Notes: generated by a model from the letters alone, not told the origin. 41,106 bases of DNA from Myxococcales bacterium (GCA_023954815.1 JAGSHB010000031.1:1-41106); one strand, 5' to 3'. Shown: positions 1 through 24,592, counted from the first letter of the stretch. Made by a program: numbers and translations.

Positions 1-35
1 AGCTTGAAGTCGCCGAGACCGCTGCCACATCACAC

Positions 36-7040: not shown

Positions 7041-8975
7041 GTGCTCGAAGACACTGGCTCAGGGGAAGACACCCAAGGGTCAAGCGACACGGGCGCCGCA
7101 GATCCCGACACCAGCGTTACGCCAGACACATCGGCGCTTGATACGAGCCCGAGCGACACCGCCACAAACTCCGCTTGTCCAGGCGGCGACTTCTGTGACT
7201 GCGATAAGAATGACGACTGCGACAATGGCATCTGCCTCGACACGCCAGACGGCAAGAAGTGCGGCAAAAAGTGCATCGACGCGTGCCCGGACGACTACAC
7301 CTGCAAACAATTCGGCGACAACGACTCTGTTTTCGTCTGCACAGCCAACCACCTGACCTTGTGCTCTCCATGCGAGAGCAATTCGGACTGCCAAGTCTAC
7401 GACAAGACGGCGACCTGCATCGACTACGGGGATGCCGGCAGCTTCTGTGGCAGCGCCTGTAGCAAAGACGCCGACTGCCCAGGCGACTACGCCTGCGTCA
7501 CCGCAGCCGGTAAGGGGGCTGGGAAGGCGTCCAAGCAATGCAAGCTCAAGCCCAAGGTGACAGGCGGCAGCGGCACGACCTGCACGGAGGACGCCACGTG
7601 CGGCGCGTCGGAGAGCTGCATCGACGGCACATGCCAGACCTCGTCGCCGGGCTTGTGTGAGTGCAGCACCTGGGCCAAGTCGGTCGCGACCAAGACCACC
7701 TGCTCCAACGGCAGCGGCGCTGGGGTGTGCACGGGCAGTCGCTCCTGCGGCGAAAAAGGGCTGACGGCCTGTGATGCCCCCACCGCCGTGACCGAGACCT
7801 GCAACGACGTCGACGATGACTGCGATGGGGTCACTGACGAGCTGCCTGCGGAGACCAAGTGCTCGCAGAAGGCATGGTCGACCCAAGGCAGCGGATCGGC
7901 CTGCAAGACCGACGACGATTGCGCGACCAAGGGCGAATCGTGCAACACCGACACCAACAAGTGCCAGGTGTTCATCGGCGAGTGCGCTGGCACACCTGTC
8001 TGCCTACCCGGCGGCAAGATGGAGTGCAAAGGGGTCAAGACGCCCAAGGTCGAGTTGTGCAACAGCGAAGACGACGACTGTGACGGCGCCATCGACGAGG
8101 ATTTCACCTGGAAGGACCCGTCGACCGACAAGGAATTGAGCGTTGGCGATGCATGCGGCGCAGGCGCGTGTGCTGGAGGCCAGGTCAAGTGCGAGACCTT
8201 CAGTGCGGCTGTGTGCGACACGGCAAAGAAGGCGGGCAAAGAGACGTGCAGCGGCGCAGACGAAGATTGCGATGGCAACACCGACGAAGACACCTGCGCC
8301 GACGGTGACGAGTGCACCAAAGATCTCTGCGATAGCGACAAGAAGTCGTGCTCGAACCCACCCGGCGCCACCTGCGATGACAAGAACGCATGCACTGTCG
8401 ACACCTGCGACAAGGGCAGCGGCAAGTGCGTGTTCAAGCCCTACTCGGGCACCTGTGACGACGGCAACGCATGCACGGTCGGCGACACGTGCGGCGTGGC
8501 AACCGGGGGCACCTCCGTGTGCAAGCCGGGCAGTAAACAGAAGGACTGCGACGACAACAACCTGTGCACCGACGACAGCTGCAACAAAGACAGCGGCTGC
8601 GTCAACCTCGCCAACTCCGCGACGCAGACCTGCTACGGCGGCGCCAAGAACACCGTCGGCGTGGGCCCGTGCAAGGCGGGCATTCAGTACTGCAAGAGCG
8701 GCAAGCTGGAGAGCGCCTGCGTGGGTGTCGTACTTCCGAATAAGGCTGAGAAGTGCGATGGCATCGATGACACCTGCAATGGCGTCACGGATGAGGGCTG
8801 CAAGGTCAGCGGCGTGTCCGTGGCATTTGCGGCAGCAGCCGGCACGACCACGGGCAGCAAGGGCAAGGAACTGAGAGTCGCGTTGGGCCAACAGAGCCCA
8901 ACTGGCACGGCGGTCGGCCCGAAAAAGACAGTCCTGTTTGGCTTCTGGGCGTGGCTCACCGGCGCGACCAAATAG
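7041..8975 (+). CDS. MopE-type Cys-rich repeat lipoprotein
   Basis: This is the conventionally readable part (644 residues) of a gene that probably begins near 6907. It opens with a Thr/Asp/Ser-rich tether (residues about 1-45), then a strongly Cys-rich body. Four MopE-type motifs are visible: CNDVDDDCDGVTDE, CNSEDDDCDGAIDED, CSGADEDCDGNTDED and CDGIDDTCNGVTDE. MopE motifs are linked to surface proteins, copper in the Methylococcus namesake and Ca/metal binding more generally. Between them (about 420-540) lie CDDKNACTVDTC and CDDGNACTVGDTC modules like those of the 2027-residue protein at 18509, so the two proteins share a module family. The C-terminus ends in an aromatic stretch, FGFWAWLTG. 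A secreted fibre-like gene follows after 48 bp, implying a shared transcript. The metal and function are unproven. Confidence 0.85.
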   Translation: MLEDTGSGEDTQGSSDTGAADPDTSVTPDTSALDTSPSDTATNSACPGGDFCDCDKNDDCDNGICLDTPDGKKCGKKCIDACPDDYTCKQFGDNDSVFVCTANHLTLCSPCESNSDCQVYDKTATCIDYGDAGSFCGSACSKDADCPGDYACVTAAGKGAGKASKQCKLKPKVTGGSGTTCTEDATCGASESCIDGTCQTSSPGLCECSTWAKSVATKTTCSNGSGAGVCTGSRSCGEKGLTACDAPTAVTETCNDVDDDCDGVTDELPAETKCSQKAWSTQGSGSACKTDDDCATKGESCNTDTNKCQVFIGECAGTPVCLPGGKMECKGVKTPKVELCNSEDDDCDGAIDEDFTWKDPSTDKELSVGDACGAGACAGGQVKCETFSAAVCDTAKKAGKETCSGADEDCDGNTDEDTCADGDECTKDLCDSDKKSCSNPPGATCDDKNACTVDTCDKGSGKCVFKPYSGTCDDGNACTVGDTCGVATGGTSVCKPGSKQKDCDDNNLCTDDSCNKDSGCVNLANSATQTCYGGAKNTVGVGPCKAGIQYCKSGKLESACVGVVLPNKAEKCDGIDDTCNGVTDEGCKVSGVSVAFAAAAGTTTGSKGKELRVALGQQSPTGTAVGPKKTVLFGFWAWLTGATK

Positions 8976-9023: not shown

Positions 9024-11240
9024 ATGGCGCAGCAACATTGGATCAGAAAGCTGGTGCTTGGATTATTGGCTACGCTGCTCGCGTTGCCATCGGTTGCGAG
9101 CGCAGCCGCCAGTGACACCATCCGACTGCAAGGCCGGTTGACAACGAATGGCGGCGGTCCGGCGCCCGATGGCGACTACGGATTGACGGTCTCCCTGTAT
9201 GGGAACAAGACCGACACCAAAGCGCTGGCAGAATATGTCTACGTGGGTGTGAAGCTGAAAAACGGCATCTTCACCATCTCCGTCGGCAAGAACGGCAAGC
9301 TCGACACGACCAACATCGTCAACGGCAAAGTGGGCTGGGTCGGCGTCAAGGTCGGCAGCGACGCTGAACTCCCACGGATGGCGATCCACAAGGTGCCGTA
9401 CGCCATCTCCGCCAACGTCGCCAGCAGCCTCAAGTGCACCGGGTGCGTGAAGGCGTCTCAGATGGACGCTGCGATTTTGACCGGCGTCACCAAGCAGATC
9501 AACACGGTGAAGACGACCCTCGACACCAAGTTCAGCAAGGCGGATGCCGCGCACGCCGGCGCGCTGAAGAGCCTCGACACCAAGTTGACCGCCGCCACTG
9601 GCGCGAACAAGAAGGCCATTGCGGGGCTGACGACAAAGGTCGGCACCAAGGCAGACGACGCAGCCATCTCAAAGGTCGGCAAGACCGGGCAGTACGCGGA
9701 CTTGAAGAACGCCCCCAAGCCGACCCTCGCCAATCAGACGTGCGCAGTGGGCAAGGTGGTCGTCGGAATCGACGCCAACGGCAAGGTGAAGTGCGCCACC
9801 GACAAGACCAACGCGCTGTCGACGCTCGACGCCCGCTTCGTCAATGAAAAGCAAGGTAACTCGGTCACAGGCGCGATGGTGGCCAACAGCACGCTGACCG
9901 GCGCTGACATCAAGAACGGATCGGTCGGCGCGGCGGAGCTGACGCCCTGCCCCACGGGTCAAGTATTGCAATCTAACGGCAAAGCCATGGTCTGCACCAG
10001 CGTTGCAAAGACGCAAAATGCCAGCGCCAACCTGCTGCACAACCCGACGTTCAGTGACATGAACAAGGACGCACGCCCCGATGCCCACTCCCTTCGCTCC
10101 ACCACATCGAGCGCGTACTACCGCTACACCAAGCTGAGCGGCGCCGACGTAGCGGCCATGGGCGGATTCGGCGGCAAGTTCTCGAGTCCCAGCATGTGGG
10201 CCACGGACCTGCGCTCCAGCAACAAGTCCGTCGACTCTTCAATCATCCTCGGCACCGCCGTGAACGAACGCACCAGCTTCGGCGCTTGGGTCACCTGCTC
10301 GGTTTGGGTGCGGCGCCCAGACACCGTCGGTACCAACGCCATCGCGCAGCTGGAGTGCTTCGGCAAGAAGATCAAGCTCACCATCAAGAAGGGCGACCTG
10401 AAGTGGCACCGCATGGTGACGACCCAGCGCGTGACCTACCCGTTGGCGTCGAGCGCACGTCGCATGTCGATCTACGGCAGTGGCTTCGCGACCAACGGCG
10501 ATCCGGCCTATGTTCGGTACGCGCTACCGAAGCTTGAGTACGGCCCCAGCGCGACGGCTTGGAACCCGGGCGCAACCTCGATGCCGCGCGGCATGATCGC
10601 CTTCTTCGCGCACCAGTGCCCGGCCGGTTGGGCGGAGTACACGGCCCTTCGTGGTCGCGTCGCCATCGGTAGCCCATCGGGCGGCAAGATTGGTCAGACC
10701 CGCGGAACGGCGCTGGGCAACAACGGCGCCCGTGTCATCACCACAGTGCCGCGGCACACCCACTCGGTGAACCCGCCCAAAACAAGCAGCACCAGCGTGG
10801 GTAACCACACCCACAGCCACAATCACCCCAGCACGAAGTCCAACACGACGGGCAATCACCGCCACTATCACGACCACCCGAGCACCAACACGTCAACGAC
10901 CGGCAATCACCGCCACGGGATCCGCACACGCCAAGATGACTGGAATGACAGCGGCGGCGCTGGCCCAAGCTGGGGCGATGGTGACAACGGTGCTTACAAG
11001 CCCTACCACTACACGGATTACGCGGGCAATCACGCTCACTCGCTCAACCTTGGCGGTATCTACTCGAACTACCAGGGCAACCACTACCACACGACGGATC
11101 TGCCAAACATCAACTCGAGCGCGGCGGGTGGGCACTCGCACACGACCGACATTGCGCCGTTCAATGCAGCCCACACAGGCAGCGGTAGCGTCGAGGTCAC
11201 CATGCCGTACGTGCAACTGGTCGCCTGCTACGTGCTGTAG
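9024..11240 (+). CDS. Secreted fibre-like protein with His-rich tail-collar/fibre-tip domain
   Basis: A 738-residue exported protein. GAGGG precedes the ATG at good spacing. Residues 1-28 are a Sec signal peptide ending VASA. Residues 30-140 form a beta-rich N-terminal domain (IRLQGRLT, DGDYGLTVSLYG) ending in LKCTGCV, followed by a helical, possibly trimeric stalk (about 155-280) rich in Lys/Thr/Asp. A middle beta-sandwich-like domain covers about 340-520. The end, from GMIAFFAHQCPAGWAEY to MPYVQLVACYVL, matches the phage tail-collar pattern. Within it lie 11 overlapping HxH motifs, mostly as GNHxH units. In the T4 long-tail-fibre tip, HxH motifs bind iron in a trimer. There are no phage genes nearby, so this looks like a domesticated surface fibre. 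The ligand is unknown. Confidence 0.82.
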   Translation: MAQQHWIRKLVLGLLATLLALPSVASAAASDTIRLQGRLTTNGGGPAPDGDYGLTVSLYGNKTDTKALAEYVYVGVKLKNGIFTISVGKNGKLDTTNIVNGKVGWVGVKVGSDAELPRMAIHKVPYAISANVASSLKCTGCVKASQMDAAILTGVTKQINTVKTTLDTKFSKADAAHAGALKSLDTKLTAATGANKKAIAGLTTKVGTKADDAAISKVGKTGQYADLKNAPKPTLANQTCAVGKVVVGIDANGKVKCATDKTNALSTLDARFVNEKQGNSVTGAMVANSTLTGADIKNGSVGAAELTPCPTGQVLQSNGKAMVCTSVAKTQNASANLLHNPTFSDMNKDARPDAHSLRSTTSSAYYRYTKLSGADVAAMGGFGGKFSSPSMWATDLRSSNKSVDSSIILGTAVNERTSFGAWVTCSVWVRRPDTVGTNAIAQLECFGKKIKLTIKKGDLKWHRMVTTQRVTYPLASSARRMSIYGSGFATNGDPAYVRYALPKLEYGPSATAWNPGATSMPRGMIAFFAHQCPAGWAEYTALRGRVAIGSPSGGKIGQTRGTALGNNGARVITTVPRHTHSVNPPKTSSTSVGNHTHSHNHPSTKSNTTGNHRHYHDHPSTNTSTTGNHRHGIRTRQDDWNDSGGAGPSWGDGDNGAYKPYHYTDYAGNHAHSLNLGGIYSNYQGNHYHTTDLPNINSSAAGGHSHTTDIAPFNAAHTGSGSVEVTMPYVQLVACYVL
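10750..11150 (+). repeat. GNHxH repeats (HxH metal-ladder candidate)
   Basis: Coding repeat at the end of the fibre-like gene. Successive units read GNHTHSHNH, GNHRHYHDH, GNHRH, GNHAH, GNHYH and GGHSH, preceded by one RHTH. The units are separated by Ser/Thr/Asn-rich spacers of irregular length. Regular HxH placement along a fibre tip is the arrangement known to chelate a column of iron ions in T4 gp37. Confidence 0.85.
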
Positions 11241-12597: not shown

Positions 12598-14361
12598 TCA
12601 CGGAAGCTGTGCGGTCACGACGTTGCTTGGAAGGGAGCCAGTGCCCCCCGCAATGGGCATCCACACATAGACGCGGTAGCGGTACGTTGCGCCAGGGACA
12701 ACCTGCGTATCCGTCGCCGTCTCGTGCCCCTGCCCCGGCATGCCGTGGATGTTCTGGAAGGTGTCGCAGCCCACACCCGAACAGCGTTGCAATACCGTGC
12801 CTGCGGCGCCGGTGCCGTGGTCGGTCCAGCTGAGTGTCACGCCCTTGACCGTCGCGCTGACCAGCTTCAGGCCGGTGGGGGCCGTGTCCTTGAGCGTGCC
12901 GGGCGCAGGCGCCTTGTTGTGACCGCCGCCACACTTTGGCTTGATGGGCGGCGTCGGCTTGGGCGCATCCAACTCAGCGCGGGCCTTGGCGTAGCGCTTG
13001 GCAGCAAAGTTGTTCATGTCCGCAACGATAGCCGGATACCCCACCACGCCGGGATTGGTGATACGGACGGGCGCGTGCGGGTCTTGGGCAAGATCGGTCT
13101 TGAGAAGTGCATGGGCCGTGCCGAGCCACGTGGCGATGCGCTGGGGCTTGAACCACTTCTCCAAGATACGGTCGGCATGGACACGATACCGGGCCAGCAG
13201 CGCCGGGTGGGAGACGATGCGACTGAGCAACGACCGCGGTGTCGCCGGCAATGGCCACGCCGCATTCCAGCCATCGATAACCGGAATGCACCCGAAGGCG
13301 TTGTCCGCAAAACCCACGTCGAGGTCCCACGGAAGATACGTCCAGCGGCCCACAGCCTCATCTCGGTGCAGGTAGTAGTTGTGTGCGTTGAAGCCGGTGT
13401 ACTGATCGAACGCGCCCGCATACAGCGCCACGGCGGTGAACTTGAGGAAGCCCTCCAGGTCCAGGTTCGTGGCCATCCAAGCCTCCAACTTGTCGTCAGG
13501 CACGGTGCTCAGCGCATGGGTCAAGGTGTGGAGGGGCCCATGGCCTATCTCTGCGGTATCACTGGTCTCCGGCGAGAAGGTGTTGGTGAACCCCGACGCA
13601 CTGGCCTGCGACTCGAGGCCGGCGCCGGGCCCGCCGAGGTGAACCTTGTAGAGCAGCCCCTGTGTGCTGCCATAGGTCCGCGCCAGGAAGCTCTTGTCGA
13701 TGCGCTCGACCACCACAAAAACGCCGCGATTTGTACCGTTGACAGCCACCGTGGCCCACGATGAGCGCGACGCAGGCACGCCCTCGGCAGCGAGCACCTC
13801 GCCGACGAGTCGCTCGGAAAAGACCGAACCAAACTGCACCCCATTGTCCAAGGCGAGCCGCCGCAGGCCAAGCAGACGTTGACCGGTCTTGAAACGCCCA
13901 AAATGCAGCAGCAGGCCGCGCTTGTGCTTCTGATTCGGCTGCGAGGAGCTGTTGCCCTTGTAGCGAACGCCGATCTCTTTCAGCGTCATGCCGGCCCACG
14001 AAAACGTGCCGCTCACCCAGATACGTTCCGGTAGGGCCGCGTTCATTTTCGCGATGTCGGCGGGCGCAATGGTGAGCGAGATGCGTTGCACCTCGGTGGC
14101 GCTAAAGAGGTCGTCTTGCGTCGGTCCCGCCCAGTGGGGGCCCACGTCTCGCCCAGGAACACTGTCAGTCGTAGCGGTATCAGGGGAATCGGCTGAGGTG
14201 CCTGAGGTGGCTGTCGGCGCCGGTTCCGTACAGGCCATGAGCCACAGAGATAGACAGGCTGCTGCCACCGGATGGACCGGTCCGAAACGCGCGCCGCTCG
14301 CAGGCGTCACCGGTATCAGCGTCAAGGGCTTCAGCGTCACCGTGGTCAGCATTGCGGGCAT
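12598..14361 (-). CDS. CotH-family lipoprotein kinase with C-terminal Fn3-like domain
   Basis: A 587-residue lipoprotein (LWLMAC, Cys44) with a short Thr/Asp/Ser tether. Residues about 90-430 match the CotH fold, an atypical secreted protein kinase family first seen in spore coat protein H. Visible signatures are GVRYKGNSSS, the LALDNG strand, the VVVERIDKSFL glutamate helix, the FDQYTGFNAHNYYLH region and the YLPWDLDVGF metal-binding Asp motif. A Lys/Pro linker with Cys precedes a fibronectin-III-like C-terminal domain (about 495-587, GVTLSWTDHG and GATYRYRVYVW). It is the last gene of a minus-strand run, 14 bp after the small lipoprotein gene. Family members phosphorylate secreted proteins; the target here is unknown. 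Confidence 0.9.
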   Translation of the reverse strand: MPAMLTTVTLKPLTLIPVTPASGARFGPVHPVAAACLSLWLMACTEPAPTATSGTSADSPDTATTDSVPGRDVGPHWAGPTQDDLFSATEVQRISLTIAPADIAKMNAALPERIWVSGTFSWAGMTLKEIGVRYKGNSSSQPNQKHKRGLLLHFGRFKTGQRLLGLRRLALDNGVQFGSVFSERLVGEVLAAEGVPASRSSWATVAVNGTNRGVFVVVERIDKSFLARTYGSTQGLLYKVHLGGPGAGLESQASASGFTNTFSPETSDTAEIGHGPLHTLTHALSTVPDDKLEAWMATNLDLEGFLKFTAVALYAGAFDQYTGFNAHNYYLHRDEAVGRWTYLPWDLDVGFADNAFGCIPVIDGWNAAWPLPATPRSLLSRIVSHPALLARYRVHADRILEKWFKPQRIATWLGTAHALLKTDLAQDPHAPVRITNPGVVGYPAIVADMNNFAAKRYAKARAELDAPKPTPPIKPKCGGGHNKAPAPGTLKDTAPTGLKLVSATVKGVTLSWTDHGTGAAGTVLQRCSGVGCDTFQNIHGMPGQGHETATDTQVVPGATYRYRVYVWMPIAGGTGSLPSNVVTAQLP

Positions 14362-14938: not shown

Positions 14939-16375
14939 TCACCAGCCAAACACCAACGCTGACAACAAGTGCAGCGCAGCCTGAGGGTCGCCCAGGCCGC
15001 CCTTGGGCAGCTGATCGCAAGCCGTGGCGACTCTAGGGCCCGCGGGTAGGCCCTTTGCGATGGCTGCATCCAGCTGCGCGCCGCGCTTATCTACCCAAGA
15101 CCGCAGTTCTTTGGCTTCGTCAGCAAAGTCGTCATCATCCTGTGCGGCCACGATCTGTTGGGTCAGGCGATTAATCGCCAAATGCAGTGCTTTGGGCCGC
15201 CAAACCTCGTGACGCAGACGGGCGAGTTCACTGTCAAACCGCTGCCGCATCTTGGGAAGGCGCGAGAGTCGACGGGCGAGCTCGCCATGGACGAAGGGTT
15301 GCAAGTCGCCATCATCGCTGCCACCGACCAGCACGTTATCGACACCCCAAGGGATAAAAGTTGCGCGGTCTTCATCGGTTGGATCGAAGTATACGAAGAA
15401 GTTGTTGCGCATCGTGCTGTAGCCATCGGTGTGGCCGATCAGAACTTCCATCGCCCAGTACGTAATGAAGCGATCCAGATTGACGACCTTGGACAGCGCC
15501 GCCTCCAGCTGCGCATCCGGGAGCTTCAACGCTGCAGAGACCGCCAACAGGGGCGCCCCAGTGAGATCGGTATCGGCTGTCTTGGCCTGCCACCTGCCCA
15601 GATGACCGGTGCCGAACCCAGCCACAAACCCGGGGGTGAAGTCAGCAATCGTGCCCTCATAGAGAGAGCCGGAGTCGGAACCAAAAGCCCAACGTAAGAA
15701 GCGCTTTTTCACGGCCTCGACGTGGGTGTACGCGCCCAACGACGCGCCATTGACCATGACGTTGGCGAGATTGCAGCGCGGCGCGGGATAGCCCGCGGCA
15801 GCAAAGAGCTCATAGGCCAAGCAGGTGTGCATCCGCGTCGGGTCTTGGTTGTTGTTGTTGAGCGTGATGCGCTCGGTGTCGCCGAACAATTGCTTGCCGA
15901 CCACGCGATCCGTTTTGAGCTTGAGCGAGGGTTTGAACATGCCCTGCCCCGTCACCGAACCGAGAAAACCCTTCTTGCGGATGCCGACACGCTTCAGCGG
16001 GGTGCCATCGATGACGATGTCGCTCTCAAACCAATCATAGTGCTCAGGAAATCCCGATGTGCAGTCGTCGGTGAGCTGGGAAAAGACGATGTCGATCAGC
16101 TCACCTGGGGGCACGCCGAAGCGGTTGTCCTTGCGCAGCACATCAAAGTCCTCCGGCGGCATGGTGATCTGTACGCACAGAGCGTCGGTGGATGCGAAAG
16201 AGACGGTTGTGGTCACGGCGTGGCCCAACGACGCCACTCCGTCACACGGGATGCCAGGCGGGGGTCGTTCGCCCGCTTCTTCCTCTCCCCCGCAGCCCAC
16301 AGACAGGGCAGACACTGCGAACAACAGCGTGAAAAGCGAGCGCCAAGCAGTCGGTAACGAGCGTCTACCAGCCAT
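14939..16375 (-). CDS. CotH-family lipoprotein kinase
   Basis: A 478-residue lipoprotein (LSVGC, Cys28, then GGEEEAGE). The CotH core runs from about residue 50 to 420: VSFASTDALCVQITM at the front, VGIRKKGFLGSV for the lysine-bearing strand, RITLNNNNQDPT, the HVEAVKKRFL glutamate helix, and FIPWGVDNVLVGG at the metal site. The motif here is PWGVDN rather than the PWDLD of its neighbour, a variant that keeps the second Asp. The start codon lies inside the last codons of the upstream outer-membrane-type gene (11-bp overlap), implying coupled translation. A 137-bp gap separates it from the next gene, the small lipoprotein. It belongs to the same family as the protein at 12598-14361 but is clearly divergent, so this is not a recent duplication. 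Confidence 0.9.
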   Translation of the reverse strand: MAGRRSLPTAWRSLFTLLFAVSALSVGCGGEEEAGERPPPGIPCDGVASLGHAVTTTVSFASTDALCVQITMPPEDFDVLRKDNRFGVPPGELIDIVFSQLTDDCTSGFPEHYDWFESDIVIDGTPLKRVGIRKKGFLGSVTGQGMFKPSLKLKTDRVVGKQLFGDTERITLNNNNQDPTRMHTCLAYELFAAAGYPAPRCNLANVMVNGASLGAYTHVEAVKKRFLRWAFGSDSGSLYEGTIADFTPGFVAGFGTGHLGRWQAKTADTDLTGAPLLAVSAALKLPDAQLEAALSKVVNLDRFITYWAMEVLIGHTDGYSTMRNNFFVYFDPTDEDRATFIPWGVDNVLVGGSDDGDLQPFVHGELARRLSRLPKMRQRFDSELARLRHEVWRPKALHLAINRLTQQIVAAQDDDDFADEAKELRSWVDKRGAQLDAAIAKGLPAGPRVATACDQLPKGGLGDPQAALHLLSALVFGW

Positions 16376-16994
16376 AACCCAAACTCACGTTGAGCAGCGG
16401 TGAAAAGCCACCGGCTGCCGGGCTACGCGCCTCATCTTTGCCAGCCATCACCGTGGAGTGCAGCACGCCGGAGCCGAGCTCCAGTACGAAGCCAGACCAA
16501 TTCCAGACATAGCCGATCTCAAGGCCGCCGCCGAAAATGGGCGAAGAGGCGACGGTTCGCGACGATCCTGTGCGCGCCCATCCCCAAGCGGTCAGCGCCA
16601 TGGGCAACAGGTACCAGCCAGCGAGCCCGGGTCGAGACAGGGAGATTCGGGGGCCGAATTTTGCGCCGATGACGTCGTATTGAAAGAGAAACTTAAGCCG
16701 CCCGCCCTGCAAGACCACCGTGGCCGCGATCCTGTCTGTCAGCACGTAGTGAAAGCGAAGATTGACCATGACAGATTCCAACCCGGCGGCCGATCCCAGC
16801 AAACCCGCTAGTGGGCCAAGCGGCGCGATGAGGATGGCGCGATTCAACCCAGTGACGCCGCCAGCGAGTCGCGACAGTTCCGGGCTCTCGTCCGAAGGGA
16901 TGGCGGGCGGTGGGCGCGGACTCGCTACCGCACATGGCGGCATCCATTGCACCAAGCAGCAACTCGCAATCACCAGCAAGGGCGCAATTCGCAT
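16365..16994 (-). CDS. Outer-membrane beta-barrel-like exported protein
   Basis: A 209-residue protein. The start is set at the ATG at 16992-16994, which has GGAGAAGG immediately upstream and is followed by a signal peptide (MRIAPLLVIASCC, cleavage near AVAS). The mature part contains alternating amphipathic strands (VMVNLRFHYVLTDRIAATVV, LKFLFQYDVIGAKFGPRI, GGGLEIGYVWNW) and ends in VSLGYGW, an aromatic C-terminus typical of outer-membrane barrels. I do not recognise a named family. It overlaps the downstream CotH gene by 11 bp and heads the CotH run. Its promoter region is shared divergently with the porin O/P gene (154-bp gap). Confidence 0.78.
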   Translation of the reverse strand: MRIAPLLVIASCCLVQWMPPCAVASPRPPPAIPSDESPELSRLAGGVTGLNRAILIAPLGPLAGLLGSAAGLESVMVNLRFHYVLTDRIAATVVLQGGRLKFLFQYDVIGAKFGPRISLSRPGLAGWYLLPMALTAWGWARTGSSRTVASSPIFGGGLEIGYVWNWSGFVLELGSGVLHSTVMAGKDEARSPAAGGFSPLLNVSLGYGW

Positions 16995-17148
16995 ACCTTC
17001 TCCGGGTGCTGGGCCGTTGCCGTGGGGCCATTTGCGACAGTCGTGTGAACGTCTGGCACGTTCCTGTGTCAGGCCGCGAATAGCCGGAGACACCTTGGCA
17101 AGCATACGGTATCGCTTCGCCAAAGACAGCGCAGTAGGAGAGTCAGCG

Positions 17149-18372
17149 ATGCAACTTTCAGGTGAATTGACCTTGCCTCAGACGGCCGCAGTTCGCCGCG
17201 GGATTCGCACGGCTCGGGCCCTACTGACCGTGTGCGCGGCGGTTTTACTCACCACCGAAGCGAACGCGGTCGCACCAACGGCGACCAAGGTGACGACCTC
17301 ACCCGACATCAGCCATCGGGCCGGCAAGGGCATCAAGTTCATCGCCCCGAGTGGCGCCTGGTTGTCGCTGCGTCCGCGGGTGATGTTGCTGTACCACCGC
17401 GACCAACCAGAACAAGGCAAGGCCGCCCATGCCCTGACGTTGCGGCGCGCCCGGTTCATCATCAAGAGCGGCATGCCGACGCTGCACCTGTCCTCCAAGC
17501 TGGAGTTGGCATTTTCTTCCCGAGATCTGCGTTTCTCGGGCGGACATCCCCGTCAGACGCCGGTGTTGACTTGGTCGGTGGCGTGGACCCAATGGCGCGA
17601 TCTGCGGGTCAAGGTCGGGCAGTTCAAAATTGGCTACTCCCGTCAGCGACTGATCTCCTCGGGCAATCTGCAGATGGTGGATCGTTCCGCCGTGCAGGGC
17701 GAGTTCACGCTGGATCGGGATATTGGTGTTGAGTTGTACAGCGACGACCTCGGCGGATTGGGCGTGCTGCGCTACGTGGTGGGTGTCTACAACGGCGAAG
17801 GTCGCGATGTGTATCAGCTCTCCACGTCGCCCCCCATGGTGCTCGCCCGCCTTGAGTTCCTCCCCTTCGGCAAGTTTGACGCCTACAAGGAAGCGGACCT
17901 CAAGCGGCATCGCACGCCGAAGCTGGTCATCGCAGTGGCCGGCGCCAAGCTGGATGGTGCGGCACGGGATCGCGGTGTCCTGGGCAGCGTCCCCAAAGAC
18001 GGCGAGACGACCGACCACACGATGATGACCGCCGACCTACATGCGAAGTGGCGGGGGCTGTCCCTGTTCGTCGAGGGCCACGCACGTTCTTCGAAACGGG
18101 CTGCAGGGCTCGCTCCCGGGCGCAGCGGCTGGGGCGTGGTGTCGACGTTGGGTTGGATGCTACCGCTCAAACGCGATATCGAACTCAGTGCGCGCTTCGG
18201 CCAGATCACTGGCGCACCAGATAGCGCGGTAAAGGACCTGCGCGAAATCGGCGGCGGTCTGTCGTGGTACCTGAGTGGCCACGCGAACAAAATTCAAGCG
18301 GATGTGACGCAGCTGTCCAGCGAAGGCAGTGACGACCTGCGGTTCCGGCTGCAGTTGCAAGTGTCGATGTAA
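17149..18372 (+). CDS. Porin O/P-family (phosphate-selective-porin-like) protein
   Basis: A 407-residue outer-membrane protein. The ATG at 17149 is preceded by AGGAG and followed by a long Sec signal ending EANA. An open frame extends upstream to 16762, but that part only runs antisense to the neighbouring gene. The body has the usual porin O/P pattern: WLSLRPRVMLLYH at the first strand, RRARFIIKSG, KLELAFSSRDLR, VKVGQFKIGYSRQRL with the RVGQxKxPxS-like stretch, DRDIGVELYSDDL, and a tail of beta strands ending LRFRLQLQVSM. Porin O/P members conduct anions, classically phosphate or polyphosphate. It lies divergent to the CotH/outer-membrane operon, so the two may share regulation. The substrate is not proven by sequence. 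Confidence 0.88.
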   Translation: MQLSGELTLPQTAAVRRGIRTARALLTVCAAVLLTTEANAVAPTATKVTTSPDISHRAGKGIKFIAPSGAWLSLRPRVMLLYHRDQPEQGKAAHALTLRRARFIIKSGMPTLHLSSKLELAFSSRDLRFSGGHPRQTPVLTWSVAWTQWRDLRVKVGQFKIGYSRQRLISSGNLQMVDRSAVQGEFTLDRDIGVELYSDDLGGLGVLRYVVGVYNGEGRDVYQLSTSPPMVLARLEFLPFGKFDAYKEADLKRHRTPKLVIAVAGAKLDGAARDRGVLGSVPKDGETTDHTMMTADLHAKWRGLSLFVEGHARSSKRAAGLAPGRSGWGVVSTLGWMLPLKRDIELSARFGQITGAPDSAVKDLREIGGGLSWYLSGHANKIQADVTQLSSEGSDDLRFRLQLQVSM

Positions 18373-18508: not shown

Positions 18509-21500
18509 ATGGATCGTCTACAATCGCCATCGCGGCGGCCCCATGCCTGGGATCCGACCCGTGTAATCTTGGTCATAAGCGCTCTGATTACAGTGGCCTT
18601 GCCTGGATGTCTGCCCGACTTTGAGACGGCCGAGTCCCTAGAAGCACGCCTGGATGCGCTGGCCCAAAACGGCGACATTGTGGATCCAGACGGCAATGCC
18701 GACGCGGACGATGTCGTCGATGATGCACAAGACGCCACGGTGATTTTCGACATCAAGGCGGGTGATACCGGCCAGCCCGATACAGGCAACAATGACCCCG
18801 ACACGGATGAGGGCACTGACGTCGGGCAGGACGCGAAGGCGCCGGAGTGCGAATCCAACTTTGACTGCGCGCAGCTCTACAAGGGCCAATCGCCGTGCTC
18901 GTACTACACCTGCAATGGCCAGACCAAGCTCTGTGTGCACCAAGTGCCCGAGGAAGGGACGGCATGTCAGCTTGTTGGTCAGACCCTGAGCTCCTGCCAG
19001 TTGAGTGTGTGCGATGGCAAAGGCGCATGTGGCATCGCCAACGCCAAAGATGGCCTCGCGTGCGGTTTCGGTAAGTGCGGCAATAAGTGCGCCACGGGCC
19101 AGTGTGTTGCCGCGGGCGCGGCTGACTACGACGACGGAAACCCCTGCACACAGGATTATTGCGATCAGGGAAAGGAGGTGGTGCACAAGCCGATCACCAA
19201 CCTGTCGCTGGCCTGTGACGACAACAACGCTTGTACACAATCAGATGCCTGCATCGCTGGTAGCTGCCTCGGGGCTGCGAAGGCCTGCGACGACGGGTTC
19301 GCCTGCACATTCGACGCCTGCGACAAGGCGAAGGGCTGCATACACACCGCCAAGCCAGGGGTGTGTAACGACGGCGATCCATGCACCAAGGACGCCTGCG
19401 ACATCGCCATTGGATGCACCATCACCGGCGACGTCGTGGGTGCAGCTTGTGACGATGGCAACGCGTGCACCAAAGGCGAGGTCTGCGGTAAGGGCGGTGT
19501 CTGTGAGGGCGGCAGCTCGACCTGCACGTGCAAATCGGATGGCGACTGCAGCAACAAGGACCTGTGCAAGCCCATGGCGTGCATCAAGAGCCTGTGCCAG
19601 GTGGACCTCGCCAAGTCCGTGACGTGCACCGACAGTGGCGACACCACCTGCGCTAAGAACATCTGCGACGCCACAACGGGCAAGTGCAAACCTTCGGCTG
19701 CCAAAGACGGGGTGGAGTGCGACGACGGCGATGAGTGCACCGTCTCGGCTAACTGCAGCAAGGGCGCCTGCATCGGGACTAAGGCGCAGCAGTGCGATGA
19801 CAACAACGCGTGTACCGACGACTCGTGTGCATCGGGTCAGGGCTGCGTCAACCTGCCGAATCAGGCGACCTGCGACGACAACAACGCGTGTACGAGCGGG
19901 GATGCCTGCACCAGCGGCACGTGCGCGGCGAAGGCCAAGGTCTGCGATGACAACATCAACTGTACATTCGACGCGTGTGACGCCAAGACCGGCGCCTGCA
20001 GCCATAAGGCAGACGACGCCAAATGCGACGATGGCAGCGCCTGCACCAGCGACAGCTGCGGGGCGAAGGGATGTGTCTACTCCCCGAACGACAAGGGCAG
20101 CTGCGACGACGGCGATAGCTGCACCAAGAATGCCTGCCAGAAGGGATCCTGCGCGGTAACGTCGGTGGTGTGCGCCTGCTCGACGGCGAAGGATTGCGAC
20201 GACGGCAACCCCTGCACGACCAACGCTTGCGCCGACGGAAAATGCAGCGCAAAGCCCGGCAACAAGGGGCAAAAGTGCACGACGGGCGACAAGTGCCAGG
20301 TGGCTGATAGTGGCACGTGCGCCGCTGGCGTCTGTGTGAGTGGGAACAAACCGAAAGACTGCGGCGGCGTGGCGGACGCGTGCCACAAGGGCGTCTGTGC
20401 ACCGGCTTCAGGTGAGTGCGTCAAAGTCGCCCTCGGTGATGGCACGACGTGTGACGCTGACGGCAACGGCTGCACCGTGGCGGACGCTTGTTCAGCAGGA
20501 AAGTGCGTGGCCGGCAAGTCTGCAGACTGCGGTGCAGACGCGGATGCCTGCAACGCGACGGCGTGCAAATCGGGCGGCGCGGCGACATACACTTGCGAGA
20601 AGACGCCGCAACCCCAGGGCACCGAGTGCAGCGACGGCAAGTTCTGCACAACGGGCGATGGCTGCGACGGCAAGGGTAAATGCGCGAGCAAAGGCGTGAA
20701 AGACTGTGCCGGCTTGAACGACGACTGCAATGTGGGCACATGCAGCGACGAGAAGAAGAGTTGCGTTGCGAAGCCCAAGGCGAAGGGCCTCAAGTGCAAC
20801 GACGGATTTTACTGCACCGTGACGGACCAATGCAGCGCTGACGGCAAGTGCAAGGGCAGCGCCCCCCGCAAGTGCGATGAGAAAGCGTGTCACGACACGA
20901 GCTGCGATGATGTGAAGGACGCGTGTCTGCTGGTGCCCACCGCCATAGGCGCTGCGTGCGACGACAGCAGCCTGTGCACGGCCAACGACGTCTGTGATGG
21001 CAAAGGACTCTGCGCCGGCAAGGGTGTGGCGTGCGATGACGGCAACCCCTGCACCGTCGATGCCTGCGACAACCAGACTGGCAAGTGCACCGCCACTGCC
21101 AAATCAGGCCTGGCTTGCAGCGACGGCAATGCGTGCACGCTGGGAGAGTCTTGCGACGACAAGGGCTCCTGCGCCGGCGGCAAGGCCAAAGCGTGCAACG
21201 GAGAGGCCTGCGCGGAGGCGACGTGCAACAAGGGCACAGGCCAGTGCGGCACGCAACCCAAGGCGCCAGGCACGGCCTGTGACGACGGCGACGCATGCAC
21301 CGCTGGCGACGGCTGCGACGGCAAAGGCGCGTGCGCTGGCGGCACACCGAAGACCTGTGAGGGCGATGCCTGCAATGCGGGCGTGTGCGAGGGCAAGACG
21401 GGTACGTGCGGCAAGTCGCCGAGAAAGGCAGGAACGCCTTGCACCGACGGCAATGGCTGCACGGTGGATGATGCCTGCGATGGCAAGGGCTCGTGTGCTG

Positions 21501-24500
21501 CAGGTGGGGCCAAGAAGTGCCCGTCCGGCACGTGCACGACGGGCAATTGCGATGACAAGACTGGAAAATGCCTGGCGACACCGCTCAACGACGGCACGGA
21601 ATGCGACGACAAGAACGCGTGCACGGCCGGCGACAAATGCACTGCTGGGGTCTGCAAAGCCGGTAGCTTCACGTGCGAATGCAAGATGGACGGCGACTGC
21701 GACGACAAGAACGCGTGCACCACGGACAAATGCGTGACCGCCGGCGGGCAGACCCTGTGCAGCTACGCCAACACCAAGGACAACCCTTGCGATGATGGCA
21801 ATGCGTGCACGACCAACGACGCGTGCAGTGACGGCCAATGCGCGGGCAAGACGACCGTCTGTGATGACAACAACCCGTGCACAGCGGACAAATGCGACGC
21901 GACCAGCGGCAAGTGTGTCGCCCCGGCAACCACTGGCGCCAAGTGCGACGATGGCAACAAATGCTCAACCGAGGATGCCTGCTCCGACAAGGGAGCCTGT
22001 AAGGGCAAGGTCAAGACCTGCGACGACGGCCAAGTCTGCACCGATGATGCGTGCATCGCGTCGACGGGCGGATGTAGCAACAAGGTCAACACAAAGAGCT
22101 GCGACGACGGCAACAAGTGCACGCTGACAGACACATGCGTAAATGGGGTATGCAGCGGCAAGAAGAAGGTCTGCGATGACAAGAACCCGTGTACGTCAGA
22201 CGCTTGTGACAACAAGTCGGGCGATTGCACGAAAACGCCGTTGGTCGGGTTGAGCTGCTCCGATGGCGTTGCGTGTACGACGGGTGACGCGTGTGACACC
22301 AAGGGCGCGTGCGCAGGCAAGAAGAAGGTCTGCGACGATGGCAACGCCTGCACTGCCGACGGTTGCGACAGCCAAAGCGGTAAGTGCACGTTTGACGTGA
22401 TCAATGGTGGCGCGTGTAGCGACGGTGACGCATGCACGACGGTCGATTCCTGCAACAGCGCGGGTGTGTGCAAAGGCACGAGTCCGAAGACCTGCAATGG
22501 CGACGCATGCAACGTCGGGATCTGTGACGCGAAGACTGGTAACTGCGGGAAGAAGCCGAAGATCGGCGGCACAAGCTGCGATGACGGCGACGGCTGCACC
22601 GAGAGCGATGCGTGTGACGGCGCTGGTAAGTGCGCCGGTGGCAAGACCAAGACGTGCGTGGGTGACGCCTGCAATGTGGGCGTTTGTGTGGCTCCCCACG
22701 GCACCTGCAGCAAGCAACCGCGGAGCAGTGGGACGCTGTGCTCGGATAACAACAGCTGCACAGTCGGCGATGCCTGCGACGGCAAGGGCTCCTGCAAGGC
22801 GGGTGGGCTCAAACAGTGCGCAGCAGACGCCTGCAACGAAGCGACCTGCAACCCAACCAATGGCGCCTGCGGAAAGAAAGCCAGGCCTATCGGCGCGCCC
22901 TGCAATGATGGTGACGCGTGCACGCAGACGGATAAATGCAACGGCGCCGGGACATGTCTCGGAAGCAACGCGAAGGCCTGCGCAGGCGACAGCTGCAACA
23001 ACGGAACCTGCGATAGCAAGAGCGGCAGCTGCGGACTCAAGCCCAAGGCGTCGGGCACCACCTGCACCGATAGCAACGCGTGCACCAGTGGCGATGTCTG
23101 CGAGTCGGGCTCCTGTAAGCCCGGAAGTTGGATATGCCAGTGTCAGAAGGATGCCGACTGCAATGACAGCAATGGCTGCACCAGCGACAGCTGCATCTCG
23201 GTCTCGGGCAAGCTCGAGTGCAAGAACGCGGTGAATCTTGGGCAGTTGTGCAATGACGGAAAGGCCTGCACGACGGGGGATAAGTGTAATACCAGCGGCG
23301 TATGCACCGGTGCCGCCAAGCAATGCGACGACAGCAATCCGTGCACGGTCGATGCCTGTGTAGCCACCACTGGCGCCTGCAAGAGCACGCCCGACACGGG
23401 AAAGAGCTGCGACGATGGCAAGAAGTGCACGTTGAGCGATGTCTGCAACAGCTCCGGTGTCTGCGGAGGCACGGCGAAGCTCTGCGATGACTCCAACGGC
23501 TGTACAAATGACGCGTGCAGCACGAGTACCGGCCAGTGCTTGTTCACCAACAATTCAGCCGGCTGCGACGACAGCGACCCCTGCACCATCAACGACAGCT
23601 GCAAGGGCGGGACGTGTTCGGGCACGACCAAGGGCTGCGACGACGGAAATGCGTGCACCGTGGACAGCTGCAGCAAGGGCAGCTGTGTGCATCAGCCAGA
23701 TACTGGAGCGACATGCAACGACGGAGATGCGTGCACCAGCGAGGACCGTTGCACCTCTTCGAGCACGTGCGCGGGCACCCAGAAGAACTGCGATGACGGC
23801 AACAGCTGCACCAACGACAACTGCAGCGCGGGATCGTGCGTTCACCCTGCAAATACCGGGGCGGCTTGCAACGATGGCAACGCCTGCACGCTCAGCGACG
23901 CCTGCGGCAGCGATGGTAGCTGCAAGGCTGGCTCTGCAAAGGTGTGCTCGGCCGACCAGTGTTCGATTGGCGTTTGCAACATCGTCAATGGCCAATGCAG
24001 CACATCGCCCAAACCGTCTGGTGAGTCCTGCAGCGACAACGATGGGTGCACGGTTGGCGACGTCTGCGACGGCGGCGGCGATTGTAAAAAGGGCAAGGAT
24101 AAGGAGTGCGACGAGAAGTCTTGCAATGACGTCAAGTGCAGTAGCTCGACGGGCGATTGTGTCTACACGCCTCATAGCAAGGGCAATGGTTGCGATGACG
24201 GCAACAAGTGCACTGAAAGCGACGAGTGTGACGGGGCGGGCAAGTGCGTCTCCGGCGGTTTGAAATCGTGCAACACAAGCACGAAGTGCGCGAAATCGTA
24301 CTGTGAATTGGCGAGTGGCAACTGCGTGGTGGAGCCAGACGTGGGCGCGAGCTGCAACGATGGCAACGCGTGCACAAAGAACGACAAGTGCCAGGTCAAC
24401 TACACGTGTGCAGGCGCAAAACGTTGCGTCGACCAGTACGCTTGTACGTACGACAGTTGCTTCTCAAGCGGTACGGCCTACAAGTGCAGTCACACCAAGA

Positions 24501-24592
24501 GCGACTACTACTGTCGTAAGAAATACAGCAACTACAAGGCAGTGTGCCGGCCGGCGAGCGCCAATAAGACCGATGGCTGCAAGGTGCCGTAG
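18509..24592 (+). CDS. Giant Cys-rich CDDGNxCT-repeat lipoprotein
   Basis: A 2027-residue lipoprotein. GAGGGAG precedes the ATG. The signal ends near Cys34 (VALPGC) and is followed by an acidic Asp/Thr/Gly tether to about 110. The rest is about 50 modules that start CDDGNACT or close variants, with four Cys each. Type A reads CDDGNACTxxDxCDGKGxCxG; type B reads CDDxNPCTxDxCDxxTGxC. In a third type, B', the opening is CxGDACNxGxC. Four C-x-C hinges (near residues 340, 555, 1054 and 1541) divide the array. Modules like these, probably small disulfide-held units, occur in surface proteins of Myxococcota-type bacteria. The last 40 residues (CSHTKSDYYCRKKY onward) differ and may cap the rod. It is probably a long surface adhesin or metal-binding rod; the role is unproven. 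Confidence 0.92.
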   Translation: MDRLQSPSRRPHAWDPTRVILVISALITVALPGCLPDFETAESLEARLDALAQNGDIVDPDGNADADDVVDDAQDATVIFDIKAGDTGQPDTGNNDPDTDEGTDVGQDAKAPECESNFDCAQLYKGQSPCSYYTCNGQTKLCVHQVPEEGTACQLVGQTLSSCQLSVCDGKGACGIANAKDGLACGFGKCGNKCATGQCVAAGAADYDDGNPCTQDYCDQGKEVVHKPITNLSLACDDNNACTQSDACIAGSCLGAAKACDDGFACTFDACDKAKGCIHTAKPGVCNDGDPCTKDACDIAIGCTITGDVVGAACDDGNACTKGEVCGKGGVCEGGSSTCTCKSDGDCSNKDLCKPMACIKSLCQVDLAKSVTCTDSGDTTCAKNICDATTGKCKPSAAKDGVECDDGDECTVSANCSKGACIGTKAQQCDDNNACTDDSCASGQGCVNLPNQATCDDNNACTSGDACTSGTCAAKAKVCDDNINCTFDACDAKTGACSHKADDAKCDDGSACTSDSCGAKGCVYSPNDKGSCDDGDSCTKNACQKGSCAVTSVVCACSTAKDCDDGNPCTTNACADGKCSAKPGNKGQKCTTGDKCQVADSGTCAAGVCVSGNKPKDCGGVADACHKGVCAPASGECVKVALGDGTTCDADGNGCTVADACSAGKCVAGKSADCGADADACNATACKSGGAATYTCEKTPQPQGTECSDGKFCTTGDGCDGKGKCASKGVKDCAGLNDDCNVGTCSDEKKSCVAKPKAKGLKCNDGFYCTVTDQCSADGKCKGSAPRKCDEKACHDTSCDDVKDACLLVPTAIGAACDDSSLCTANDVCDGKGLCAGKGVACDDGNPCTVDACDNQTGKCTATAKSGLACSDGNACTLGESCDDKGSCAGGKAKACNGEACAEATCNKGTGQCGTQPKAPGTACDDGDACTAGDGCDGKGACAGGTPKTCEGDACNAGVCEGKTGTCGKSPRKAGTPCTDGNGCTVDDACDGKGSCAAGGAKKCPSGTCTTGNCDDKTGKCLATPLNDGTECDDKNACTAGDKCTAGVCKAGSFTCECKMDGDCDDKNACTTDKCVTAGGQTLCSYANTKDNPCDDGNACTTNDACSDGQCAGKTTVCDDNNPCTADKCDATSGKCVAPATTGAKCDDGNKCSTEDACSDKGACKGKVKTCDDGQVCTDDACIASTGGCSNKVNTKSCDDGNKCTLTDTCVNGVCSGKKKVCDDKNPCTSDACDNKSGDCTKTPLVGLSCSDGVACTTGDACDTKGACAGKKKVCDDGNACTADGCDSQSGKCTFDVINGGACSDGDACTTVDSCNSAGVCKGTSPKTCNGDACNVGICDAKTGNCGKKPKIGGTSCDDGDGCTESDACDGAGKCAGGKTKTCVGDACNVGVCVAPHGTCSKQPRSSGTLCSDNNSCTVGDACDGKGSCKAGGLKQCAADACNEATCNPTNGACGKKARPIGAPCNDGDACTQTDKCNGAGTCLGSNAKACAGDSCNNGTCDSKSGSCGLKPKASGTTCTDSNACTSGDVCESGSCKPGSWICQCQKDADCNDSNGCTSDSCISVSGKLECKNAVNLGQLCNDGKACTTGDKCNTSGVCTGAAKQCDDSNPCTVDACVATTGACKSTPDTGKSCDDGKKCTLSDVCNSSGVCGGTAKLCDDSNGCTNDACSTSTGQCLFTNNSAGCDDSDPCTINDSCKGGTCSGTTKGCDDGNACTVDSCSKGSCVHQPDTGATCNDGDACTSEDRCTSSSTCAGTQKNCDDGNSCTNDNCSAGSCVHPANTGAACNDGNACTLSDACGSDGSCKAGSAKVCSADQCSIGVCNIVNGQCSTSPKPSGESCSDNDGCTVGDVCDGGGDCKKGKDKECDEKSCNDVKCSSSTGDCVYTPHSKGNGCDDGNKCTESDECDGAGKCVSGGLKSCNTSTKCAKSYCELASGNCVVEPDVGASCNDGNACTKNDKCQVNYTCAGAKRCVDQYACTYDSCFSSGTAYKCSHTKSDYYCRKKYSNYKAVCRPASANKTDGCKVP
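18840..24500 (+). repeat. Alternating Cys-module array with ~490-residue super-repeat
   Basis: About 50 tandem Cys modules. From the third C-x-C hinge (about 21670) the order is B, four A-B pairs, four A-B' pairs, then A and the fourth hinge (about 23130). After that hinge the order is again B, four A-B pairs, three A-B' pairs and A, then the terminal module. Both halves also begin with the same longer B variant. The unit between hinges is about 487 residues, and the shorter last copy lacks one A-B' pair. DNA identity between copies is only moderate, so the duplication is old. Confidence 0.8.

Follow-up and report, generated by a model that had tools for sequence, protein, structure and literature searches.

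A 41,106 nt stretch of DNA from a Myxococcales bacterium (GCA_023954815.1, JAGSHB010000031.1:1-41106; hereafter the window, with positions counted from its first letter) encodes, on its plus strand at 18509..24592, a giant cysteine-rich protein of 2027 aa and 287 cysteines that reads as a bacterial lipoprotein. The body of this protein is a tandem array of 65 four-cysteine modules, and comparisons made within the array, with two orthologues and with a family of paralogues lend moderate support to the duplication of a multi-module block, and not only of single modules. The block in question probably spans a hinge in the array, instead of running from one hinge to the next as had been proposed in an earlier reading of the sequence (hereafter the original prediction). 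There is a signal at the block level, although module type and context account for much of it.

An ordered array of four-cysteine modules

Parsed by cysteine spacing from aa 236 to 2012, the array resolves into 31 A, 15 B, 14 B', four post-hinge B (hB) and one terminal B module, and the earlier count of about 50 was therefore too low. A modules follow the spacing C-5-C-5-C-4/5-C-6/7 and B modules C-5-C-4-C-4..8-C-8..10, while B' modules are mostly C-4-C-4-C-6-C-10 and lack the CT motif; most modules carry an invariant Asp at Cys1+2 and ahead of Cys3. The array is divided, as foreseen, by four C-x-C hinges (at aa 339, 555, 1056 and 1543), each with an A module on one side and a B module on the other; these are, however, inserts of ~8 residues with two cysteines (CxCxxDxD) and not four-cysteine modules. 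Hinge 3 is followed by hB(AB)4(AB')4A and hinge 4 by hB(AB)4(AB')3A and then a B-like terminal module, which are exactly the orders that had been predicted, and the longer B variant said to start both halves is recognizable in the longer C-x8-C interval of both post-hinge B modules. Sorting of B and B' to this degree in both segments has a probability of 4e-4 under a random B/B' order (assuming no tandem clustering), and the order is identical in two orthologues; module order is thus better than random.

Those orthologues are full-length, lie in two genomes of the same genus (L049, identical with L021, and L050, identical with L022) and share 63-64 % identity with the window protein. They retain 286 of the 286 comparable cysteines, all hinges and all modules, with none gained or lost; the comparable number is 286 and not 287 because, in the third sequence, the lipid cysteine is encoded in another frame of the metagenome-assembled genome (MAG). 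Given this retention, the array is no assembly artefact but real, old and fixed, its architecture having been stable across three species and ~36 % divergence. In L050, at ~9950-10250, the N-terminus with the lipobox ALPGCLPDFE lies in a different frame, representing either a sequencing error in the MAG or a real frameshift.

A duplicated multi-module block

The original prediction held that a whole block of ~490 residues had been duplicated, such that modules at equal positions pair across the blocks following hinges 3 and 4 (segments 4 and 5). When only the window sequence is used, these segments pair in order at a marginal level (BLOSUM p 0.03-0.04), and by identity or DNA the pairing is not significant, the p-values spanning 0.03-0.3. 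When module scores are averaged over the three species, however, pairing is clear under permutation within type (p = 0.0002); equal-position modules are then more alike than modules of the same type elsewhere, which is the mark of a super-repeat. A hinge-free scan over all module offsets likewise gives a best offset of 18 modules (best-of-all p 0.0045). The proposed self dot-plot, made here with a profile, has peaks at each ~54 residues, whose height declines from 2010 to ~1240 near offset 265-319, and then a secondary peak of 1465 at the anticipated offset of 490, followed by 1166 at 544. Upon shuffling of modules within type across segments 3-5, the score at 489 is reached in 3/120 shuffles and that at 436 in 2/120. 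Segments 3 and 4, compared in hinge register, do not pair. No DNA-level tandem repeats remain in the array, and the duplication is therefore old.

Although copying of a multi-module block is thus moderately supported by the pairing, the 18-module offset and the dot-plot, a frame other than hinge to hinge suits it best. Two kinds of block, T (B(AB')nA) and Hd (a hinge plus hB(AB)3A), alternate along the array as T1-Hd1-T2-Hd2-T3, and the T1 copy at aa 842-1055 had been overlooked. T1-Hd1 (aa 842-1274) and T2-Hd2 (aa 1275-1760) share 52.7 % identity, or 44 % without cysteine, compared with 47.3 % and 38 % for the hinge-to-hinge blocks, and T1 and T2 are the most similar pair (58.4 % identity). 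For the T-Hd frame, permutations drawing on the pool of all T and Hd modules yield p 0.0004 by type and 0.019 by context; since the frames were chosen after the module order had been seen, the p-values of these permutations, and of those of the second block only, are descriptive. The repeat unit would accordingly be B(AB')nA/hinge/hB(AB)3A, present in ~2.5 copies with T1 included, and this hinge-spanning unit fits better than the hinge-to-hinge frame. As expected for a tandem repeat, the frames are not fully separable.

Other giant cysteine-rich ORFs with hinge-divided arrays exist in the same genome, with blocks of ~518 aa in L078 (G000:C279), ~140-150 aa in L084 (G000:C197) and ~95-120 aa in L085 (G000:C67) and L094 (G000:C225), those of L085 lying near 95. 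Among the giant proteins put through the same offset scan, local multi-module duplications are significant in L078, L090, L084 and L085, and not significant in L079, L088, L089 and L094.

Paralogues and the origin of the extra block

Paralogues were surveyed in a set made up of the protein's own genome plus 17 more from its family. Strong matches came from 16 genomes of this set, and 20 paralogue loci were drawn from them. All 20 share a grammar in which an N-terminal region with ABBA is followed by hinge 1, a further stretch, hinge 2, hB(A,B')nA, hinge 3 and what lies beyond it. Each of the seven modules of the window protein between 557 and 733 ranks first, among its modules of the same type, for the same position in paralogue segment 3. 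The three modules that precede paralogue hinge 3 find their best matches in A1519, B'1491 and A1465, i.e. on the hinge 4 side of the window protein, and the two of them at T-2 and T-3 score 72 and 80 to its hinge 4 versus 55 and 69 to its hinge 3. These matches suggest that hinge 4 goes back to what was hinge 3 in the ancestor and that, since the modules before hinge 4 and not those before hinge 3 match the paralogues, the block at hinge 3 is likely to be an extra copy inserted upstream. The paralogues carry the unit hinge-hB-A-B-A-B-A-B once, after hinge 3, and that unit has position-specific signatures (leave-one-out assignment 37/48 correct, with chance 1/3); in register fit to the paralogue unit, segment 4 is the best of 36 arrangements and segment 5 the fifth. 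Hinge number differs between orthogroups. Many paralogues end in larger regions that are not cysteine-rich, whereas the window protein ends in a small Cys/Tyr/Lys-rich cap; the C-terminus of L060 is an RCC1-like propeller on a cysteine-rich stalk (E 3.8e-51), and that of L076 has a weak MAM-like domain, below its cut-off.

Predicted fold and disulfide bonding

Structures of two fragments were predicted with AlphaFold2 from an input consisting of the window and orthologue rows only. The predicted local distance difference test (pLDDT) scores are 90.6 for the A-B/A-B' fragment (aa 1222-1436) and 88.2 for the hinge fragment (aa 1465-1685), where a short helix is predicted at the hinge. The models have a beta hairpin per module, in which DSSP assigns two hairpin strands and one isolated bridge, and each module is therefore predicted to be a small antiparallel beta unit. 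In Foldseek searches against the PDB, the sole significant match is HgL of the Entamoeba histolytica Gal/GalNAc lectin (9gjc_H, E 1.5e-4, probability 0.97), with the top four all being HgL; the hinge fragment also matches it (E 9.5e-4). The match is local (TM ~0.2 over full length); the predicted template modelling (pTM) scores of 0.44-0.50, while expected for an elongated chain, make the relative placement of modules uncertain; and at the sequence level the PDB, searched with two profiles as well as the protein itself, gave no meaningful relative and no HgL match, only weak fibrillin and scytovirin hits.

The cysteine-rich pseudo-domains of HgL have 20-35 residues and four cysteines, with Cys1-Cys4 bonded internally and Cys2 and Cys3 bonded to the modules on either side (PMC12948311). 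The modules of the window protein likewise hold four cysteines in 20-35 residues and, in the AlphaFold2 models, beta strands. A pseudo-domain of the HgL type would have the topology of a three-stranded antiparallel sheet; the models show, per module, the two hairpin strands and the bridge. Cys1 and Cys4 are lost together while Cys2 and Cys3 remain in a B-type module at aa 207-235 (19127..19213), where both Cys1 (here Tyr207) and Cys4 are absent in every family member read, as well as in three further modules in L052 and a single one in L087; the other apparent losses of single cysteines that were read are register shifts of the search pattern. Since the family-wide case goes back to a single ancestral event, these amount to about five separate cases and a Fisher p-value overstates their weight. 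The coupled loss supports a Cys1-Cys4 bond within the module, whereas bonding between modules, stiffness and surface display are putative. A concrete disulfide topology can be offered for repeats of the PF00526 family, for which the sequence searches found no solved relative, and with it a link at the level of the fold to an amoeba adhesin whose structure was solved recently. In three loci (L069, L070 and L072), the last module of the array lacks Cys2 only, leaving three cysteines, as might suit the end of a covalently linked daisy chain.

A proposed mechanism and its alternatives

The preferred reading, to which we give about an even chance, is that of a lipid-anchored, stapled surface rod that would most likely act as a long spacer or adhesin stalk and that was lengthened by copying of hinge-spanning blocks. 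A conserved lipobox anchor leads into an Asp-rich tether and then into the 65 modules in fixed order. Within these, a Cys1-Cys4 bond would close each module, and Cys2 and Cys3 would bond to its neighbours on either side, so that the modules form a covalent daisy chain and the rod is stiffened; the CxC inserts would interrupt the regular stacking and let the rod bend there. An ancestral lipoprotein of the family may have gained extra B(AB')nA/hinge/hB(AB)3A copies by unequal recombination or slippage, each making the rod longer by a whole bendable segment. The stalk would present the C-terminal cap, just as several paralogue stalks bear a larger C-terminal region, the RCC1-like propeller among them. 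A broader and clearly more tentative proposal is that one GTDB family in the Myxococcota has massively expanded disulfide-daisy-chained rods having the fold and bonding of the HgL arm, with length and bending tuned by block copying, and that the link with the amoeba might reflect homology or gene exchange; the fold and bonding scheme of the Entamoeba lectin arm were reported as novel.

Growth of the array might instead have proceeded one A-B or A-B' pair at a time, in tandem, with no block ever copied and with likeness at hinge distance due to selection by structural context and not to descent, a possibility that we consider doubtful but that draws on much of the evidence speaking against block duplication. 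Adjacent pairs resemble each other beyond expectation (offset-2 diagonal z 3.6; offset 58 above all 120 shuffles), and pre-hinge A modules are alike at every hinge, including hinge 1 (A314-A1032-A1519). Stratification by context takes away part of the block signal: the three-species pairing weakens to p = 0.01 once the A modules are stratified by their two neighbours as well, and further under other stratifications; the offset scan, once A is divided according to the module that follows it, moves its best offset to 14 and leaves offset 18 at p 0.04; and neighbour-stratified shuffles reach the score at 489 in 15/120 (p 0.13), with that at 436 staying at 2/120. The hinge-to-hinge frame gives p 0.30 by type and 0.66 by context in the wide pool, and permutation of the second block only gives, for both frames, p 0.0004-0.0007 by type, weakening to 0.06 and 0.013 by context. 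Moreover, a tree of the hinge-3 and hinge-4 blocks with paralogues lacked the resolution to place the two copies in the window protein as sisters (approximately unbiased test, p 0.47). Pre-hinge context, however, leaves unexplained the preference of T-2 and T-3 for hinge 4 over hinge 3, the context-stratified pairing retains its p of 0.01, and hinges must be gained or lost as units anyway, since their number differs between orthogroups.

Two further alternatives concern the function of the rod and not its growth. That the protein is a cross-linked coat protein, akin to Dictyostelium spore-coat SP75 or the cysteine-rich eggshell membrane proteins (CREMPs) and making up a disulfide layer that is insoluble, and not an adhesin stalk that stands free, seems rather improbable, although PF00526 is named after the Dictyostelium repeats, CREMPs have a-b four-cysteine modules and an SP75-like annotation (PMC3068167), the window protein is without a head domain and very many such proteins exist in the genome; the lipobox anchor and the even number of cysteines after the lipid cysteine (286) suit intramolecular pairing instead, and several paralogues end in larger C-terminal regions. 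Binding of calcium or another metal by the Asp-rich CDDGN motifs, with repeat number setting capacity, is very unlikely. The invariant Asp residues and a neighbouring ORF with a weak MopE-like metal-binding motif would be in keeping with it, but the array matches no known metal-site family, its cysteine pattern suits disulfides and capacity would not need a fixed module order.

Layout of the gene and its surroundings

All parts of the gene lie on the plus strand. A signal peptide with the lipobox ALPG-C34 (18509..18610), read from the sequence and found as ALPGCLPDFE in both orthologues, precedes an Asp-rich, low-complexity tether (aa 35-113; 18611..18847) that differs in length and sequence between orthologues, and it is on the ALPGC motif in the three sequences that the reading as a bacterial lipoprotein rests. 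An irregular N-terminal cysteine region common to the paralogue family (aa 114-235; 18848..19213) leads to the array, in which cysteine parsing places the hinge 1 insert CTCKSDGD at aa 339-346 (19523..19546) and the hinge 2 insert CACSTAKD at aa 555-562 (20171..20194). The segment-3 head (aa 563-841; 20195..21031), containing modules that match paralogue segment 3 by position, is followed by T1, B(AB')3A (aa 842-1055; 21032..21673), defined by module order and block comparison, and by Hd1, with hinge 3 (CECKMDGD, aa 1056-1063) and hB(AB)3A to aa 1274 (21674..22330). T2, B(AB')4A (aa 1275-1542; 22331..23134), is defined by module order, paralogues and block comparison and is followed by Hd2, with hinge 4 (CQCQKDAD, aa 1543-1550) and hB(AB)3A to aa 1760 (23135..23788), and by T3, B(AB')3A (aa 1761-1972; 23789..24424), a partial and the most diverged copy. 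The C-terminal cap, delimited by orthologue alignment, occupies aa 1973-2027 (24425..24592). The PF00526 (Dicty_CTDC) profile matches 17 stretches of the ORF (E 1.8e-36; 124 bits vs a curated cut-off of 27), and an NCBIfam search of the protein gave no match.

The gene downstream of the lipoprotein gene is kept beside both orthologues. Directly upstream is a porin O/P-like gene (16762-18372, plus strand), with a weak Pfam match (E 6.7e-5), and close by are two adjoining CotH-type kinase genes on the minus strand (12598-14361 and 14939-16375); the CotH-type kinase family phosphorylates secreted coat proteins. Farther upstream on the plus strand are a second cysteine-rich ORF (7041-8975), which has two PF00526 repeats and the weak MopE-like motif, and an ORF for a secreted-looking protein of 738 aa (9024-11240) without a Pfam match and with a His-rich C-terminal repeat, GNHRHxHDHPST. 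The source genome is a 6.4-Mb MAG whose named relatives are uncultured Myxococcota. First-look PF00526 candidates number 1150-2412 per genome in this family vs usually <110 elsewhere in the phylum, with intermediate counts in class-mates (notably f5 and f8), and 150 scored matches in the protein's own genome are spread over ~55 contigs. One myxobacterial family is marked out by a huge expansion of such cysteine-rich proteins.

Comparison with known systems

Dicty_CTDC repeats, found in Dictyostelium spore-coat and related proteins, belong to the same sequence family as the array modules, but Pfam models a single 24-residue unit without A, B and B' types, hinges or super-repeats, and the case in the window concerns bacterial lipoproteins. 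The arc and arm of E. histolytica HgL are likewise built from small four-cysteine beta modules in elongated tandem; HgL differs in its ~800-residue cysteine-rich region, for which no sequence similarity was detected and no report of a super-repeat was found, and in its flexible points, which are missing bonds there and would be the extra CxC inserts, as candidate hinges, here. Literature searches on giant cysteine-rich repeats in Myxococcota found nothing.

The statement in the original prediction that no description of such a hierarchy was known needs to be qualified. CREMPs of eggshell membranes, annotated as SP75-like, have alternating a-b four-cysteine modules of ~25-30 residues in long arrays (PMC3068167). 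Alternation of two module types in long arrays is what they have in common with the window protein; they differ in a C-x4-C-x5-C-x8-C-x6/11 spacing, in near-identical modules and in having no hinge-divided blocks described. Membership among the CREMPs was rejected on spacing, which is C5C5C4-5C6-7 in A and C5C4C4-8C8-10 in B. Repeats of repeats are also known, nebulin being one such protein. In the super-repeats of the titin A-band, as here, modules at equal positions are more alike (PMC10665226). Titin and nebulin differ in being built of Ig/FnIII or nebulin modules in eukaryotic muscle, whereas the window protein would be a bacterial, disulfide-rich rod with hinges, and ordered multi-level repeats of the titin type thus appear to exist in bacterial cysteine-rich surface lipoproteins as well.

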